DNA from: Saccharopolyspora phatthalungensis
GTDB taxonomy: Bacteria > Actinomycetota > Actinomycetes > Mycobacteriales > Pseudonocardiaceae
Reading direction: 5' to 3'
Assembly: GCF_014203395.1 (NCBI RefSeq)
Contig: NZ_JACHIW010000001.1
Coordinates: forward strand, 4,943,501-5,007,500
DNA length: 64,000 bases
The notes beneath the pieces are model-generated. The model was not told where the DNA came from, made no database searches, and was given only the letters and a program-made list of their open reading frames with translations. The translations under genes and the position numbers were made by a program. Below are positions 7,201-48,824 of the stretch, piece by piece; positions within the stretch are counted from its first letter, which is position 1; each line of letters opens with the position of its first letter.

Positions 7201-10200
7201 GATGTGGCGAGGTGGATCGTGCAAGGCACGCATGATGTCGTGACGCTGGCGCGTGGGCACTCGGGTGCGTCCTTGGACGATGTGTTGGTTTTGGTTGCGG
7301 TGCGGGTTGATGAGGTGGGTCGTGATGAGGCGGTGCGGTTTTCCCGGGAGTTGGCGGGCAGGCTTGGTACGCAAGGCACGGGATTCGGGGTTCGTGCCGG
7401 GGCGGGGCCGGATCCGCAGGCGGCAGAACGGCTGGATAGTGCGAAGTTGTTGAACGCTGGCCGTAAGCGGCGGCGTGCGGGTGGTTCGGTCGATGAGGGT
7501 GCGGCGCGCAGGCCGGTGGGGCCTGGTGAGGGCGTGGTGGATGCGGCAGGGCAGCGGGTGAGTGCGGAGTTGTTGAATGAGGCGGCGCGGGTGGAGGCGC
7601 GTCGTGCTCGCGACGCCGGGGAGCCTCACACCGCTGAGACATTGGCGAAGAAGTTCGGAAAGCGCACAGCGTGGGGTCAGGATCGGCTTGCCGAAATCAA
7701 GGCTGAGCCTCGTGTCACTCGGGCGGCTTTGCAGGTTCAGGAGCCGGCGCGGTTGCGGGAGTCGGCGCGGTTGCGGGCGCGTCGTGCTCTCGACATGGGA
7801 GAGCGCCATAACGGTGAGACGTTGGGCGAAAAGTACGGGAAGAGTGCCGCGTCGGGACGGCAGTTGCTTGATGAGATCAGCGCAGAGGATGGTGTCACTC
7901 GGGAGGCTTTGGGGAAGCAGGGCCGGTTGCGGAAGTCGGCGCGTGTGCAGGCGCGTCGTGCTCGGGACGCGGGTAAGCCCGACAGCGATGCGGCGTTGGG
8001 GACGAAGTTCGGGAGAAGCAAGGCGTGGGGGCAACGGCGAAATGTGGAAATTAGTGGTGTGCCTCGGCGGGCTTTGCGGTTGGAGAGGTGGGCGAGGGCA
8101 CGGGAGAATGCGCGCGTGGAGGCGCGGCGTGCCCATCACGCGGGCGAGCCTTACACGGCTAAGGCGCTGGGGCAGAGATTCGGAAAGAGCGTGGCGTGGG
8201 GTAAGAATCGGCTTGATGAGATCAGGAGTGAGAGTGCCGAGGCCAGAAATGCGGTGGGTGGGCCGGCAGAGGGTGTGGCCGCGGCTGGTCGTGGTGCTGG
8301 CGGGATCGGCTCGGTCGGTGAGAGCAGTGTCCGTAAGCGGCGTCGTGGCGGTGGTTCGGTCGATGAGGGTGCGACGCGCAGGCCGGCGGGGCCTGGGCCT
8401 GGGGTGGTAAATGCGCCAGAGCGGCGGGCGAATGAAGAGTTGTTGATCGAGGCGGGGCGTGCGGAGGCGCGGCGTGCTCGTGACGCGGGGGAGCCGCACA
8501 CCGCTAATACATTGGCGAAGAAGTTCGGGAAGAGTAAACAGTGGGGACACCAGCGGCTCGTGGAAATCAGGCATGAAGGTGGTGTCACGCGGCTGACGCT
8601 GCTGATGCGGGAGCGGGAACGGTTGCGGGAAGAGGCGCGGGTGGAGGCGGGGCGTGCCCGTGACGCGGGTGCGCCCTACAGCGGTACGGCGTTGGGGAAA
8701 AAGTTCGGAAAGAGTGTGAGGTGGGGGCGGGAGCGGCTCGATGAAATCAGCGGCGGGCACCGACAGGTCATGCGGCCAGAGCACGAGGAGTTGGCGAAAG
8801 TGCGAGAGGAGGCGCGGGTGGAGGCGCGTCGTGCTCGTGACGCGGGAAAGCCATACACCGGTCGGGCGCTGGGGCTGAAGTTCGGAAAAGCCGAGTCATG
8901 GGGCAAGGCCCGGCTTGATGAAATCAAGAGTGGTGGCGGATCGAGCTGGTCGGCTTCGCAGGAGCAGGGGCAGGAGGAGGAGCGGTTGCGGGAGGAGGCG
9001 CGGGTGCAGGCGCGTCGAGCTCGTGACGCGGGAGAGCCCCACACCGGTGAGACGTTGGGGGGGAAATTCGGAAAGCACGCGGTGTGGGGGTGGAGGCGGC
9101 TCGCCGAGATCGGTGACGAGAGTAGTGCGACCGGGTCGGCTTTGCAGGAACAGAGGCGGGAGGCAGCGCGTGCGGAGGCGCGTCGTGCCCGTGATGCGGG
9201 GGAGCCCTACACCGGTGTGGCGCTGGGGCAGAAGTTCGGCAAGAGCAGGTATTGGGGCCATGCGCGGCTTGTCGAGGTCAGGAATGAGGTGGGTGTTTCC
9301 GCGGGTGGTGCTTCGGGTTCTGGGGGTGCTGTCTCGGCGGCGGGGATCCTGTCAGCGGTTGCGGGGTCGCAGCCGGTTGGTGAGTCGGCTGCGGTCGCGG
9401 AGTTCGGTGGTATGAGTGCCGAGCCGGCCGTGGATCCGGCGTCGTGGCCGTTTGATCCGTTGGATGTCGAGGAATGGTCGCGGGGTGATGTTGTGGGTGC
9501 GGAGCCGTGGGGTGGTGTGCCTGGAGCCGGGGCGGACGAAGCAGACTGGTTCGATTTCGGTGCGGACGCCTCTGATCACGGTGTCGGGGGATTGGATTCG
9601 GTCGATGAGGGTACGGCGCGCGTGCGCGAAAGGCCCGTTGACTGGCCGGTGGATTCCGGGCTTGCTGGTGCGGAGTGGGCTGAGTCGGCTCCGGAGGAGG
9701 ATTTCCCGTTTTTGCGGGAAGTTGCGGGCCTCGACGCGGGCGGTGACTCGGCGGCCGATGGGGGCTTGTCGGGGTTGGAGCCGTGGGCGTGGAGTGTTGA
9801 TGACGTGCCGCGTGCCGATGGTCTGGATCTTGCGGGCAACGATGGGTATCTGAATCCGGATGCAATGGCGTTGTTGGACTTCGGTACGGGCACGGCTGAA
9901 CTTGGTACCGGAGAAATGGACTCGCGCTCCGAAGGTGCCGCGTGGTTGCCGCTGGAATTCGATGACGTGATGGTGGTTCCGTCGCCAGAGGGCGTGGACT
10001 CGGTCGGGATGCTTGGTGATGCGGAGGCCTTCGACGAGACGGCGCACGCCGAGGCTCGTCGTGCTCATGACGCGGGCGAGCCAGACACCATTGCGGAGTT
10101 GGGCAAGAAGCCTGCGGACATCAGGGGTGAGGGTGATGTCACCTGGTCGGTTTTGCGGGCGCAGGAGGTGGCGCGGGAGCGGGAGGCGGCGCATGCGGAG

Positions 10201-41106: not shown

Positions 41107-41293
41107 GTTACTGAATACTCGGCGGTAATTTTGGTACTCAACGGCAGCACCAAGCCTGCTGCCTCATAGCCGGCGCCGTGCGGCTTCGAGGTCACGTTCG
41201 TCGAATGGCCGTAGAAAACGGGCTTGCCGCCGATGGGCGTGCCAGTCGCTCAGGTCCGCGTGATGACGGCAGCTTGTTGATCGCCGACCTGCC

Positions 41294-41404
41294 AGCACCA
41301 AGCTGGAAGCGGCCGGGCCGGTCGGCGTCGGCATCCTGACCGCGTGGATTGCCAAGGAGGAACTGCGCTTCCCGTTGATCCGTCGAGGGGTGACTTTGAC
41401 CTAG
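41294..41404 (+). pseudogene. Possible C-terminal scrap of an ISL3-type transposase
   Basis: A 36-codon frame reads STKLEAAGPVGVGILTAWIA then KEELRF and stops. 'AWIAKEELR' recalls a conserved helix of ISL3-family transposases. No inverted repeats or other parts were found, so the call is weak. The rest of 41107-41511 shows no gene. Confidence 0.25.
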
Positions 41405-41511
41405 TCATTGCCGCAGGCCGATCCTCCTGGTAGGCCTAGAGAATCCACGCATGGGTGGTCACTGGGGTCTGATGACTCCCGGTTGGTTCAACACCAAAGG
41501 GAGGTGCTGCC

Positions 41512-41592
41512 ATGAAGCTCGTGTTCTTCCTGAAGAGCAAGCTCACGCGTCAGAAGAGCCTGAAGGAGTACGCCTGGTACGGGTGGTACTAA
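41512..41592 (+). CDS. Atropopeptide-type RiPP precursor peptide, core AWYGWY
   Basis: 26-aa peptide with an excellent AAAGGGAGG 7 nt before the ATG. Leader residues 1-20 begin MKLVFFLKSK and end KSLKEY; residues 21-26 are AWYGWY at the very C-terminus. Tryptorubin A, the founding atropopeptide, is made from a core AWYIWY by a single cytochrome P450 that joins aromatic side chains. The length, the basic leader, the C-terminal aromatic hexamer and the P450 gene 94 bp downstream all fit. The core differs from AWYIWY at position 4 (Gly for Ile), so the product should be new. No protease or transporter gene is adjacent. Confidence 0.92.
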   Translation: MKLVFFLKSKLTRQKSLKEYAWYGWY

Positions 41593-41600
41593 ACCCGTGA

Positions 41601-41618
41601 ACCAGGTTCTGGCCTGGT
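41601..41618 (+). promoter_or_regulatory. Short hairpin between precursor and P450 genes
   Basis: ACCAGG-TTCTGG-CCTGGT lies 8 bp after the precursor stop; a second GC-rich hairpin (GCCCG ... CGGGC) follows near 41641. Such structures between a RiPP precursor and its enzyme usually keep enzyme expression below precursor expression. Confidence 0.4.
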
Positions 41619-41686
41619 AGTTAGCCTTTCGTGGGTCGGTGCCCGGCTCCGGTCGGGCTCCGCCCCCTCGTGCTGGGGACCGATTT

Positions 41687-42739
41687 GTGAGCATTTCGGA
41701 AGCAAGTCGCCTTTCTCGGGTCACCACGTTCACCCCGCGAATCGACGCGCTGTTGCGAAAATATCGCGGCGCCGAGGTCTTCCGGTTGGACGAGGACACG
41801 GTCGGCGTGGGCGATGCCGCCCTGATGAATGAATTGATGCGGGTGCGGTCGGCCAACGAAATGGAGCGGCCGACGTTCAAGCCGCTGAATGGACGGTCCA
41901 TCCCGCGGCGTGAGGCGTCCGCGCTCATGCAGGCCGTCGGACACGACGTGCGGGTGGCCCTGAAGAAGCCGCTTGAGGACGAGGTCGACCTGTCCGGCGA
42001 ATGGCCGCTCGTCGGGCACAACTATCTGCGCGACTTGGTGTTCGGCGTCGACCCGTACCGGCTCAAGGTGCTGGTGGACCGCGCGCTGGAGCTGACACCC
42101 AAGTTGACCTGGACGGTTATCGTGGCCGGTGCGGCGCTGCCTGGGCGGCTGCGGCCGACCGACCCGGCCTCCACGGTCGCCGGCTTCACCGCCAACGCGT
42201 CGAGCTACCAGGAGCGGCGGCGCGCGATGGGCCTCTACCGCCGCGTCGCGGCGCCGATCTGCTTCACCGTCGCCGCGCTCGTCACCGGCGCGCTCTGGCT
42301 CGGCTCCCCGTTCGACGAGGACGTCTCCAACGAGCACATTCTGCTAGAGGCGCTGCGGCTGCTGCCGCCATCGTGGAACATCCTGCGCCGGTCCTGCCCG
42401 GAGTTCCCCGAGGTCGACGGCCGGATCGGCCGGGCGGACGACGTGCTGCTGCTGCCGCTGCTCAGCCACCGCGACCCGCGGCTGTGGGACGCGCCCGACG
42501 AGTTCCGGCCGCAGCGCTGGCGCGACCTTGACCCCGACACCTACCCCGGCTACCTGCCGTTTGGCCACGTCAACGAGCGCTGCTGGGGCCGGCACATGGT
42601 GATGCCGCTGGCCGAGCGCCTGCTCGACCTGCTGCGCCGCGACGGCTATGCGGTCATGCCCGAGCAGACCGAGGCCAAGGTGCCGCTCGCCGGGCTAATG
42701 GAGGTCGTCGGTGTGCAGATCGGCCGACAAGACCGGTGA
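41687..42739 (+). CDS. Cytochrome P450, atropopeptide cross-linking type
   Basis: 350 aa, GTG start after GGGGACC. Heme ligand Cys299 in FGHVNERCWG; ExxR motif EALR at 221-224; FRPQRW meander motif; a hydrophobic I-helix region at about 190-210 (ICFTVAALVTGALWLG) lacking the usual AGxxT threonine signature. It is shorter than typical 400-aa bacterial P450s, mainly in the N-terminal half. By position next to a 26-aa AWYGWY precursor it is predicted to install biaryl/C-N links between Trp and Tyr side chains. The stop overlaps a GTG of a short downstream frame, which is not clearly a gene. Confidence 0.9.
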   Translation: MSISEASRLSRVTTFTPRIDALLRKYRGAEVFRLDEDTVGVGDAALMNELMRVRSANEMERPTFKPLNGRSIPRREASALMQAVGHDVRVALKKPLEDEVDLSGEWPLVGHNYLRDLVFGVDPYRLKVLVDRALELTPKLTWTVIVAGAALPGRLRPTDPASTVAGFTANASSYQERRRAMGLYRRVAAPICFTVAALVTGALWLGSPFDEDVSNEHILLEALRLLPPSWNILRRSCPEFPEVDGRIGRADDVLLLPLLSHRDPRLWDAPDEFRPQRWRDLDPDTYPGYLPFGHVNERCWGRHMVMPLAERLLDLLRRDGYAVMPEQTEAKVPLAGLMEVVGVQIGRQDR

Positions 42740-42869
42740 GCGAGGCGCGGATGGTTGCCGTGCCGAACCGAACCCGAAGCGGTGGAGCGGCTGATCGGGG
42801 AGTGGACTTCGCCCTTGGATTCCCCGGCGACTTCATCGGCGAGGCCGGCGCGGTGGCCTTTTCCGGAAC

Positions 42870-44417
42870 CTACGATCGCCTCGGCTGGTCCGCTACTTCC
42901 GTGCCGCTACGGGATGCTGGCGCGGGAGCGGCTGTCAGCGGCTCGGTGATCTGCGACCGGTAGCGGCGGCGGAGATATCCGGCCGCCAAGCCCTTCAGGC
43001 CCTGTGCCAGCAGGTCGTCGAAGCCTCCCACCAGCATGTCGACGTGCTGCGGGCGGATGGTCAGCGGCGGTTCCAGCCGCACGACGTTGCGGTTGTAATC
43101 GGTGAAGGCGACGAGAATGCCGAACTCCGAGAGCAGTTGGCTGCCGGCGAGCATGGCCACGCTGCCCCGCAGTGGCCGGTCCAGCACCCCCGCCACACGT
43201 CCGGGTAAGCCCGGCAGGCAACCGCTGAGGTCGGCGAACTCGACGGCGGCCATCAGCCCGCTGCCCCGGACGTCGCGGATCAGCTTCGGGTGGCGGCGGT
43301 GCAGCCAGCGCAACCCGCTGAGCAGGTGCTCGCCCTGCTCAGCGGCGTTGGTCAGCAGGTTCTCGTCGTGCAGGACGTGCAGCGTTTCGATCGCTGTGCA
43401 GCAGGCTTCGCCCATGCCGCTGAAGGTCGCCGGCCCATGCACGAGCGCATTGCGAGCGCCGCCGTATGCGCGGTCGTGGATCTCGTGGCCTGCGAGCACG
43501 GCCGAAATCGCCGTCTTGCCGCCCCCGAGGGCCTTGGCCAGCGTGACGATGTCGGGAGTGACCCCGGCGTGCTCGAAGGCGAAGAACCGGCCTGTTCTGC
43601 CGACGCCGCACTGCACTTCGTCGGCGATCCACAGCACCCCGTAGCGATCGCACAATCGCCGTACCTGCTCCAGATAGCCCGGCGGCGGCAGCACGACTCC
43701 GGCGCCGCCCTGCACGGTTTCCAGGATCAGCACGCCGATGCCGCGGTCCCGACGCAGCAGGTCCTCCAGCGCCGCGGCGTCGCCGAAGGGAACGGCCTGG
43801 CGGCGCGGCAGGACCTCGAAACGTCCCCGGTAGAACTCCGAGTCGGTGACCGACAACGCGCCGATCGTCTTGCCGTGGAAGGAGTTACACGCGTATGCCA
43901 CCTTGGCGCGGCGCGGGCCCTGTGCCCGCTCGGCGAGCTTGAGCGCGGCCTCCACCGCCTCCGAACCGGTGCAGTAGAGCATCACGCGGTCCAAGCCGTC
44001 CGGCGCCAGTGTGGCCAGGTTCCGCGACAGGGCGGCGACGTACTGCGACGGCAGGGTCAGCCCGAGCTCATGGCGCTGCTGCTCCTGGAAGCGCCTGCGG
44101 ACCTCTAACACGCGCGGATGGTTGTGACCGAGTGCCATCGCGCCGAACCCGCCAAAGAAGTCGAGAATGCGGCGGCCGGAACGATCGACGTAGTACACGT
44201 CCTCGGCGTGGTCGACGGCGATCCGGTCAAATCCCAGCAGCCCGAACGCCGTCCACTGGCCAGGGCTGATGTGCTGCCGGTAGATCTCGGCGACCGTGTC
44301 CTGACCGAGCCGCGTCGCCTCGTCGACGCTGAGCAGTTCCGGGTGTGCGGGAATCAGCCGTCCTGTGATCGACACGATGGCCTCCGAGGTAAGCGCGCCG
44401 TCGTCTGGTACACGCAC
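42870..44417 (-). CDS. Class III PLP-dependent aminotransferase
   Basis: 515 aa, longer than the usual about 430 because of N- and C-terminal extensions. Core motifs are GFGAMALGHNHPRV, YCTGSEAVEAALKLA, SFHGKTIGALSVT, WIADEVQCGVGRTGRFFAFE (Asp and Glu-Val-Gln of the PLP site) and TLAKALGGGKTAISAV (Schiff-base Lys). Resembles ornithine/putrescine/diaminobutyrate-type enzymes that move an omega-amino group to 2-oxoglutarate. Convergent with the P450 gene. There is no evidence that it belongs to the RiPP pathway, but a role cannot be excluded. Confidence 0.88.
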   Translation of the reverse strand: MRVPDDGALTSEAIVSITGRLIPAHPELLSVDEATRLGQDTVAEIYRQHISPGQWTAFGLLGFDRIAVDHAEDVYYVDRSGRRILDFFGGFGAMALGHNHPRVLEVRRRFQEQQRHELGLTLPSQYVAALSRNLATLAPDGLDRVMLYCTGSEAVEAALKLAERAQGPRRAKVAYACNSFHGKTIGALSVTDSEFYRGRFEVLPRRQAVPFGDAAALEDLLRRDRGIGVLILETVQGGAGVVLPPPGYLEQVRRLCDRYGVLWIADEVQCGVGRTGRFFAFEHAGVTPDIVTLAKALGGGKTAISAVLAGHEIHDRAYGGARNALVHGPATFSGMGEACCTAIETLHVLHDENLLTNAAEQGEHLLSGLRWLHRRHPKLIRDVRGSGLMAAVEFADLSGCLPGLPGRVAGVLDRPLRGSVAMLAGSQLLSEFGILVAFTDYNRNVVRLEPPLTIRPQHVDMLVGGFDDLLAQGLKGLAAGYLRRRYRSQITEPLTAAPAPASRSGTEVADQPRRS

Positions 44418-46526: not shown

Positions 46527-46737
46527 ATGATCGACCGTGGCGGCGGCAAGATCGTCAACATCACGTCGGTCGCGTCCACTCTGGGCTTCAAGAACCGCTC
46601 GGCCTACAACGTGTCCAAGGCCGGGCTGACGATGCTGACCAAATCGATCGCACTCGAACTGGCCGGATCGGGCATCAACTGCAACGCCGTCGCGCCCGGC
46701 ATCGTGGAAACACCGTTGAACAGCAGCCGGATCATCG
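46527..46737 (+). pseudogene. C-terminal half of an SDR dehydrogenase
   Basis: MIDRGGGKIVNITSVASTLG, AYNVSKAGLTMLTKSIALEL, NAVAPGIVETPLN: the catalytic Tyr/Lys (YNVSK) and following helix of an SDR, with no Rossmann N-terminus. At about 46737 it runs on, in the same frame, into a MaoC-type dehydratase fragment. Confidence 0.7.
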
Positions 46738-47068
46738 TCAACTCCGGCCTGACCATCGCGGTCGTGCTGGGACTGAGCGTGCTCGACATGAGTCAGAACG
46801 CCGTCGCGAACCTGGGCATCGATGACCTGAAGCTGACGCATCCGGTGTACGTCGGCGACACGCTCTATGCCGAGAGCATCTGCACGGGGCTGCGGCCGAG
46901 TGCTTCGCGCCCAGGGTTCGGCATCGTCTCGATGCGCACGCGGGGCTCAACCACGACGGCGACGAGATCATGTCCTGGAACCGCGCCGCACTGCTGCCGA
47001 ACCGGGAAAACGGTATCGGGCAAGGCTATTTCCCCGTCGCCAAGGACCGCCCCCTCTCGATGCGATGA
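46738..47068 (+). pseudogene. MaoC-like (hot-dog) dehydratase fragment, frameshifted
   Basis: IVNSGLTIAVVLGLSVLDMS, QNAVANLGIDDLKLTHPVYV, GDTLYAES is the middle of a MaoC-family enoyl/mesaconyl-type hydratase; the N-terminal part with the catalytic Asp/His is missing. After MRTRG the frame shifts by one; the C-terminus reads LNHDGDEIMSWNRAALLPN and ends DRPLSMR at 47068. A double-damaged remnant. Confidence 0.7.
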
Positions 47069-47234
47069 CATCGTTAACGCCTCTGACACACCATCCGTAG
47101 CACCGGCAGGGCACAAAGTCCCCTTCAGTCCTGGCCGTCCGCGCATCTACGGTGGGGTTTGCTCAGCACTTGCTCAGCACGCAACAGTGCGACCGACGGT
47201 GCGCCGGCGGACCAAAACCGAAGGGGGGTCGTGG

Positions 47235-48824
47235 TTGACCACACCTCCTGCTGACGAGCCTTCACGGGGTGTGAGTGGCAACGTGGAACCTGGCGAGACC
47301 GCCCCGGAGGAATCTGTAACGCCCGCGTCCGCCGAGTCTCCCCTAGAGGTACCTGCCGAGTCTCCCGCAGAGGTGGCTGAAGAATCTGGCCAGGCGGTTG
47401 CCCCACACCCCGAGGAAGTCGGCACGCCTATAGAGGAGGGGCCGGCTGCTGAGCCCGGCGCGGAAGGCGATGGAAAGCCCCCAGATGAAGGCGTTCAGTC
47501 CTCGCGCGAAGCCGTTGCGGGTGGGTCTTCGTACGGATTCCCGGCTGGACTGTGGCGGGCGCTGGAGCGGCATCGGCCGCCCGGCATGGGACGGTCGCGA
47601 CTGTGGCGAAGCCCGCTGCGCGGCCCGTGGTTGACTTCGGTGTTCGGTCTCGTACTCCTGGCGGGACTGCCGATCGTCATCATCACGGGGCTGTTGTCCT
47701 ACATCGCGTACGGTCCGCGGTTCGGACAGGCGTTTCCGCCGGATGTGGGCTGGCTGCACCTGCCCTATTTCGACTGGCCCACCCGGCCGTCCTGGCTGTA
47801 TCGCCTCAACCAGGGAGTGCACGTCGGGTTGGGACTGGTCCTGATCCCGGTCGTGCTGGCCAAGCTGTGGTCGGTGGTACCGAGGTTGTTCTCGTGGCCT
47901 CCTGCCCGATCTATGGCGGAGGTCGTCGAACGAGCGTCGTTGCTGCTGCTCGTCGGCGGCATCCTGTTCGAGATTGTCACAGGCGTGCTCAACATCCAGT
48001 ACGACTACGTGTTCGGGTTCAGCTTCTACACGGCCCACTACTTCGGCGCCTGGGTGTTCCTCGGGGCGTTCCTGGTCCACGTGGTCGTGAAGCTGCCCCG
48101 GATGCTCAGGGCGCTGCGGTCGCGATCGTTTCGAGCCGAGATGCGCACCTCGCGGGCCCAGACCCGCCCGGAGGCCCAGGACGCGGACGGTTTGGTCGCG
48201 GCCGAGCCTGCCGAGGCCACGCTGAGCAGGCGCGGTGCCCTCCTGCTCGTGGGCGGCGGGGCCCTGGCGGTGGCCGCGGTGACCGCCGGACAGACGATCG
48301 ACGGCATCAGGAGCTCCGCCCTGCTCCTGCCGCGTGGTCGTTCCTACGGACTTGGCGCGAACGACTTCCAGATCAACCGCACGGCAGCGGCGGCCGCGAT
48401 CAACCCGGGCGACATCGCCCAGGGCTGGCGGCTTGCGCTGACCGGCGGTCCGCACCTCGTGGCGTTGGACAGAGCGAGCCTGCTGGCGCTACCGCAGCAC
48501 ACCGCCGCCCTGCCCATAGCGTGCGTCGAGGGGTGGTCCACCCTCCAGACCTGGAGCGGGGTCCGGCTCCGGGACCTCGCGAGTCTGGCTGGTGTGCCGC
48601 ATCCCCGCTGGGCACACGTGCGGTCACTGGAACAGGTGGGAGCGTTCAACCAGGCGATGCTGCAGGCGAACCAGGTCCTCGACCCGGACTCGTTGCTGGC
48701 ATTGCGGGTCAACGGCGTCGACCTCGCCCTCGACCACGGCTTCCCGGCCCGGATCATCGCCCCGGCGGTGCCGGGCGTGCACAACACCAAGTGGGTGCAG
48801 TCGATCGAATTCCGGGGCGGCTGA
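47235..48824 (+). CDS. Molybdopterin-dependent oxidoreductase with N-terminal cytochrome b-type membrane domain
   Basis: 529 aa, TTG start (MTTPPADEP) after AAGGGGGG. Residues 1 to about 110 are acidic, Pro/Glu-rich and disordered. About 125-300 hold four hydrophobic segments with membrane His residues (LNQGVHVGLGLVLIPVVLA, TAHYFGAWVFLGAFLVHVVV), a diheme cytochrome b561/NapC-like pattern. From about 330 a periplasmic sulfite-oxidase-type domain has the molybdenum Cys in IACVEGWSTLQTW. It probably passes electrons from the Mo site to heme in one chain. The next gene is a membrane partner. Substrate unknown. Confidence 0.85.
   Translation: MTTPPADEPSRGVSGNVEPGETAPEESVTPASAESPLEVPAESPAEVAEESGQAVAPHPEEVGTPIEEGPAAEPGAEGDGKPPDEGVQSSREAVAGGSSYGFPAGLWRALERHRPPGMGRSRLWRSPLRGPWLTSVFGLVLLAGLPIVIITGLLSYIAYGPRFGQAFPPDVGWLHLPYFDWPTRPSWLYRLNQGVHVGLGLVLIPVVLAKLWSVVPRLFSWPPARSMAEVVERASLLLLVGGILFEIVTGVLNIQYDYVFGFSFYTAHYFGAWVFLGAFLVHVVVKLPRMLRALRSRSFRAEMRTSRAQTRPEAQDADGLVAAEPAEATLSRRGALLLVGGGALAVAAVTAGQTIDGIRSSALLLPRGRSYGLGANDFQINRTAAAAAINPGDIAQGWRLALTGGPHLVALDRASLLALPQHTAALPIACVEGWSTLQTWSGVRLRDLASLAGVPHPRWAHVRSLEQVGAFNQAMLQANQVLDPDSLLALRVNGVDLALDHGFPARIIAPAVPGVHNTKWVQSIEFRGG

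Follow-up and report, generated by a model that had tools for sequence, protein, structure and literature searches.

A predicted atropopeptide gene pair with the core AWYGWY in Saccharopolyspora phatthalungensis

The gene pair

The window, by which the whole analysed stretch of 64,000 nucleotides from Saccharopolyspora phatthalungensis is meant, carries a gene for a 26-amino-acid peptide ending in AWYGWY and, next to it, a gene for a 350-amino-acid cytochrome P450 (Table 1). The coordinates, lengths and motifs given in an earlier note on this DNA, FGHVNERCWG and EALR among them, were confirmed when the sequence was re-read. The near-perfect ribosome-binding site that it described is also borne out, and similar signals are present in five relatives, where GGAGGT is found 6 or 7 bases 5′ of the ATG (L002, L003, L006, L084 and L085). 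The residues that bear the bonds in published products, Trp2, Tyr3 and Trp5 (PMC11450843), are all found in AWYGWY.

Table 1. Positions of the features of the gene pair and of the adjoining aminotransferase gene
Feature	Position	Strand	Details
Precursor peptide gene	41512..41592	+	26 amino acids, MKLVFFLKSKLTRQKSLKEYAWYGWY, stop TAA (translation)
Ribosome-binding site GGGAGGT	41499..41505	+	6 bases 5′ of precursor ATG
Leader peptide (predicted), residues 1-20	41512..41571	+	comparison with family precursors; leader/core split as in PMC11450843
KSLK motif, precursor residues 15-18	41554..41565	+	translation; motif defined in PMC11450843
Predicted core peptide AWYGWY	41572..41589	+	Gly codon GGG
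Cytochrome P450, predicted cross-linking enzyme	41687..42739	+	350 amino acids, GTG start
ExxR motif EALR, P450 residues 221-224	42347..42358	+	E221 and R224 conserved in ≥98% of 104 rows
Haem-ligand loop FGHVNERCWG, residues 292-301	42560..42589	+	Cys299; E297-G301 conserved in ≥98% of 104 rows
Class-III aminotransferase gene	42870-44417	opposite to pair	

Precursor and P450 are split by a 94-base gap (41593..41686, + strand). The RNA of 41593-41689 is predicted to form strong hairpins (-45.6 kcal/mol, z = -2.2, equalled by 5 of 200 shuffles), which might have a role in the ratio of precursor to enzyme. A scan for sigma-70-type promoters between 40900 and 43000 gave zero matches, against a chance mean of 0.3.

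The P450 is matched by Pfam PF00067 over residues 218-304 only (37.9 bits). It differs at three sites (G42, M51 and C237) among those that are at least 90% uniform in the 104 rows of precursor-linked P450s. An AlphaFold2 model has a pLDDT of 89.7 and a pTM of 0.90, and its best 50 Foldseek matches in the PDB (query TM 0.42-0.63, rmsd 6.8-12.5) are all labelled P450 or CYP bar 9g9q PbdA and 5xw2 HmtN. Searching the PDB by sequence returned distant P450s alone, the top match being 9ulw (42 bits, 55 bits with a profile). The modelled fold is P450-like, yet near no solved structure. The canonical P450 haem motif has a Gly that the FGHVNERCWG loop is without. Damage to the enzyme was considered on this account and rejected, FGHxxERCWG being common to nearly all relatives (L060 and L063 depart).

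Assignment to the atropopeptide family

Three sequence criteria have been published for atropopeptide clusters: a class-defining P450, KSLK or a close motif in the leader, and Trp2 in the core (PMC11450843). Here the leader has KSLK at residues 15-18 and the core AWYGWY has Trp2. The P450 shares 59% identity over 338 residues with SvaB of the varsorubin cluster (L063), and it groups within both the 104-row and the 40-row trees of precursor-linked P450s. The precursor is also matched over residues 1-26 of 26 by the NCBIfam model NF038372 (tryptorubin_fam) at 53.6 bits (E = 1.9e-14), the curated cut-off being 33 bits. The existence of this curated model means that so short a precursor need not be missed, contrary to the remark in the earlier note that gene calling commonly misses it.

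By the three criteria the locus is, at the level of sequence, an atropopeptide cluster and joins a known family, for which over 650 clusters have been predicted (PMC11450843). At the level of the product, the class is marked by C-C or C-N bridges that a P450 makes between aromatic side chains, and by a single atropisomer. The proposal of a tryptorubin-type cluster is thereby upheld, and two of the checks proposed with it came out favourably: the P450 lies inside the atropopeptide family, both in the trees and by its identity to SvaB, and homologous precursor–P450 pairs are present in 79 of the best 80 loci of 121. Trp at core positions 2 and 5 places the precursor in the bitryptide subfamily, which is described by an xWxxWx core and KSLK (PMC11450843).

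The P450 might instead work in a different RiPP class, of the biarylitide, cittilin or some other cyptide type, in which case the atropopeptide label would be wrong. The NCBIfam search with the P450 gave zero models above cut-off, and its best match is ApyO, another RiPP P450, at 62.4 bits, far below the cut-off of 525. Against this stand the score of the precursor above the tryptorubin cut-off, the identity to SvaB, and a precursor of 26 amino acids where biarylitides have five residues (PMC13417212); the reading is hardly credible and close to refuted.

Relatives, distribution and genomic surroundings

Relatives of the P450 were scanned for in one genome per species; 121 stretches were confirmed and the best 80 loci kept. 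An open precursor lies upstream of the P450 in 79 of these best 80, and it is interrupted in one. Precursors were read by script in 77 of the 80 (same strand, 49-224 bases 5′ of the P450) and by eye in three (L006, L009 and L071). L009 has the core AWYIWY and the leader motif KNLK. Upstream of locus position 7943 in L006 (Kutzneria sp. 744) the core reads AWALWY, with Tyr3 changed to Ala, so its product cannot carry the Tyr3 C-N bond of bicyclic products. The interrupted precursor is that of L071 (Amycolatopsis echigonensis), where just upstream of locus position 8000 the sequence reads ...KSLKYYA-stop-YGWI; the Trp2 codon is TGA and the adjoining P450 is open.

The window P450 has an 86% relative, P0004. 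The nearest P450s with DNA context, at 84% and 81% identity, are those of L003 (Kutzneria buriramensis) and L002 (Pseudonocardiaceae bacterium YIM PH 21723), both paired with AWYLWY; they are followed by L084 (AWYQWI) at 75% and L006 at 73%. The leaders of L003, L002 and the window start alike, with one or another of MKLVFFLK, MKLAFFLK and MRIAFFLK, whereas residue 4 of the core is Leu in the two relatives and Gly in the window.

A precursor above the NF038372 cut-off is present in 30 of 390 genomes of the window's own family, its own genome counted, and precursors identical to those of K. buriramensis and bacterium YIM PH 21723 occur in this set. One weaker precursor match in the same set (G102) has a single internal TGA. 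None of 14 control genomes has a precursor above the cut-off. Among viral contigs 24 stretches matched, none of them a relative, and coverage beyond the actinobacteria consists of the Pseudomonadota loci of the P450 scan alone. In the genus the cluster is found in one genome of 22, the window's own, and its acquisition may therefore be recent or silent.

Comparison by tblastx of window positions 30001-55000 with L002, L003 and L006 (17 kb each) and L084 (3 kb) gave no match outside 41400-42800, so the shared unit is the two genes. Neighbours in the window include, besides the aminotransferase gene, two SDR genes and one TetR gene. Genes with 96% and 89% identity to the aminotransferase occur in two genomes of the genus, and DNA similarity to these genomes stops at 42901 and 42824, just beyond the P450 stop. 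These breaks are suggestive only; the pair may have arrived separately from its aminotransferase neighbour. A MaoC domain, a molybdopterin oxidoreductase domain and the C-terminal part of a short-chain dehydrogenase share one open frame at 46527-48824, which has the look of a scar left by fusion or rearrangement. Upstream of the precursor a short stretch (41280-41405, GVGILTAWIAKEELR) may resemble a piece of an ISL3-type transposase.

The isolated occurrence in the genus, the fused-looking frame near by and the stop at Trp2 beside an open P450 in L071 would all fit a cluster that is a non-functional or silent remnant. Both frames of the pair are open, though, the ribosome-binding site and the conserved P450 residues are kept, and the dN/dS of the P450 ranges from 0.23 to 0.37 across five relatives (0.23 with L003); a remnant is thus very unlikely.

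Gly4 and Tyr6 in the core

In the earlier note AWYGWY was put forward as a new core, with Gly in the place of Ile4. To place it, cores were compared in 110 loci, the window's own copies being excluded; 107 cores were read by script and some species are represented twice. AWYGWI occurs in 35 of the 107, AWYIWY in 21, AWYLWY in 19, AWYFWY in 10 and AWYHWY in four; SWYIWY is found three times, VWYLWY and AWYIWW twice each, and eleven others once each. By distinct precursor the order is AWYIWY (19), AWYLWY (15) and AWYGWI (14). Gly4 as a novelty was accordingly rejected, AWYGWI being the most frequent core by locus and the third by distinct precursor. Nor is a replacement of Ile4 supported, as the nearest relatives carry Leu4 or Gln4. 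The part of the claim that stood is the absence of AWYGWY elsewhere: within the overlapping sets of genomes and loci searched, it was found nowhere beyond the window's own genome. The exact AWYGWY-stop pattern is present in one of 394 class-drawn genomes, again the window's own, and in none of 392 genomes from the genus of genome G407. The wider pattern SLK-x-x-AWYxWx is present in 43 of 394 genomes of the family of G407, as AWYIWY in 11, AWYGWI in 10, AWYFWY in nine, AWYLWY in six, AWYHWY in four, and AWYGWV, AWYGWL and AWYRWV once each.

Gly4 is therefore ordinary in the family, and the pairing of Gly4 with Tyr6 is the distinctive feature. The 77 distinct precursors comprise 53 with Tyr6 but not Gly4, 17 with Gly4 but not Tyr6, seven with neither and none with both; the by-eye readings of L006 and L009 would raise the first group by two. 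Shared descent accounts for at least part of this mutual exclusion. AWYGWI pairs, found in Amycolatopsis and Streptomyces, agree with the window in Gly4 and in residues 1, 2, 3 and 5, but have Ile6 in place of Tyr6, and their P450s form a separate clade; P450s paired with Gly4 cores are at most 66.4% identical to that of the window. A search of article text in the literature for AWYGWY, AWYGWI and WYGWY gave no paper; AWYGWY may already be in the published list of 685 precursors, which is a supplement.

P450 phylogeny and the origin of Gly4

A quick tree of 104 rows places the window among the five rows of a small clade (SH-aLRT 98) and outside a clade of 35 rows (100). The latter takes in every other Gly4 row but one (32 of 33), and also L063 (SWYQWL), L094 (AWYNWI) and L071, whose precursor is interrupted. 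The exception, L085, lies elsewhere on a long branch. At this locus, in genome G184, the core is AWYGWD, where residue 6 is acidic, and the P450 has diverged strongly, with an end branch of 0.74 in the quick tree. Forcing the window into the 35-row clade of the quick tree costs 25.5 log units and is unrejected (p = 0.139). In a careful tree of 40 rows support is 100/99 for the five-row clade and 100/100 for the Gly clade, and the AU test rejects the forced grouping (p = 0.0003), a p-value that is not independent, since the rows were picked after the quick-tree outcome, leaving out the long rows L085, L094, L015 and L113 among others and keeping the long L006.

With its P450 in a Kutzneria-type clade outside the AWYGWI clade, the window lineage probably acquired Gly4 separately. 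The cores of the five-row clade are AWYLWY (twice), AWYGWY, AWYQWI and AWALWY, and its inner branching is unresolved. At 18 positions that separate P450s of the Gly4 type from those of the Tyr6 type, the window has eight Gly4-type and 10 Tyr6-type residues. The corresponding counts are 8 and 10 in L002, 7 and 10 in L003, 8 and 9 in L006 and 10 and 6 in L084. As the relatives are mixed likewise, the mixture is a trait of the clade and not tied to Gly4.

Predicted product

The core of tryptorubins A and B is AWYIWY. The tryptorubin cluster resembles that of the window in its two-gene core layout, the KSLK leader and residues Trp2, Tyr3, Trp5 and Tyr6; it has Ile4 where the window has Gly4. The tryptorubin P450 (WP_007820080.1) is represented in the tree by loci with the same core (L004, L020, L021 and others), and the P450s of these AWYIWY stand-ins lie outside the window's clade. 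The core of LauA is given as WYIWY (PMC12352619).

The pair is best read as a minimal two-gene atropopeptide cluster, and its P450 probably turns the core into a tryptorubin-like bicycle by cross-linking. The leader helix and KSLK motif would dock on the P450, as published relatives suggest, and the enzyme would then form three bonds, one C-C (Trp2-Trp5) and two C-N (Trp2-Tyr3, and Trp5 to a backbone nitrogen), at a total cost of 4 H. The leader, and sometimes Ala1 too, would be cut off by ordinary host proteases. Gly4 is expected to be tolerated, residue 4 being bond-free in known products, and the product would have neither side chain nor stereocentre at this residue. The predicted ions are m/z 841.3304 (AWYGWY minus 4 H) and 770.2933 (WYGWY minus 4 H). 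A loss of 2 H per cross-link, as the earlier note had it, is contradicted by varsorubin B1, which has three bonds and just 4 H fewer than linear WYQWL (PMC11450843). Masses computed in the same way match published ions: 830.3872 against 830.3871 for linear WYIWY, 791.3511 for varsorubin B1 and 649.3133 for scabrirubin.

The related P450 ScaB accepted nine of 10 residue-4 changes in ScaA; I25R failed, and Gly was not among the changes (PMC12352619). ScaB also acted on XamA2 (WEGYISY), whose core position 4 is Gly, giving a product that is monocyclic by mass from a WxxY core (PMC12352619). The literature text searched holds no Gly4 product with an NMR structure and no product of an AWYGWI core.

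P450s of the family vary in what they make, some forming a single bond (scabrirubin) and others a mixture (varsorubins) (PMC11450843), and the sequence therefore does not tell which bonds form. The varsorubin cluster sva of Streptomyces varsoviensis (SWYQWL, L063) has the gene order of the window. Its contig, NZ_JOBF01000044.1, is named in PMC11450843; the cluster was expressed, its products were solved, and one P450 yields both a bicycle and a monocycle. It differs from the window in core residues 1, 4 and 6, and its P450 lies in the AWYGWI clade. The scabrirubin cluster sca (TWFIWYS) shares a family P450, KSLK and Trp2 with the window, but has Phe3 and a monocyclic tetrapeptide product (PMC11450843, PMC12352619); it is not among the fetched loci under that name.

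With single-bond products known from the family (PMC11450843, PMC12352619), the window might yield a monocycle with the Trp2-Trp5 bond alone, like scabrirubin or varsorubin B2a. With Gly4 the core may become too loose for the second closure, and the split of 8 to 10 at the group-separating positions means that neither P450 group predicts the bond pattern. Tyr3 and Trp5 are, on the other side, both present, as in bicyclic products. We regard a monocycle as unlikely, though a realistic outcome; its ions (minus 2 H) would be m/z 772.3089 for WYGWY and 609.2456 for WYGW.

If the pair works as predicted, it provides one more atropopeptide, with a core unmet elsewhere in the genomes searched. Its value would be chiefly that of a test case. 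Set beside AWYIWY and AWYGWI, the combination of Gly4 and Tyr6 separates the effects of residue 4 from those of residue 6 on bonds and isomer. A more far-reaching and rather doubtful proposal is that AWYGWY is a natural hybrid of the Gly4 and Tyr6 core types, and that a clade P450 mixing residues of both groups, acting on a core that is without a residue-4 side chain, leads to a bridging pattern, or to mirror-topology isomers in a mixture, unlike that of tryptorubin. Residue 4 would in that case steer the atropisomer. The small clade, with four cores in five rows and P450s of mixed residues, is a reasonable source of substrate-tolerant enzymes.

Amyxirubin, also named clavorubin (PMC11450843), was considered as a known Gly4 product with the core AWYGWI and rejected, the Streptomyces clavuligerus plasmid locus L113 reading AWYIWW, which is the more likely amyxirubin core. 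Sixteen plasmid records of S. clavuligerus (H2-H17) carry a P450 relative at 59% identity, and the core in H2 is AWYIWW.
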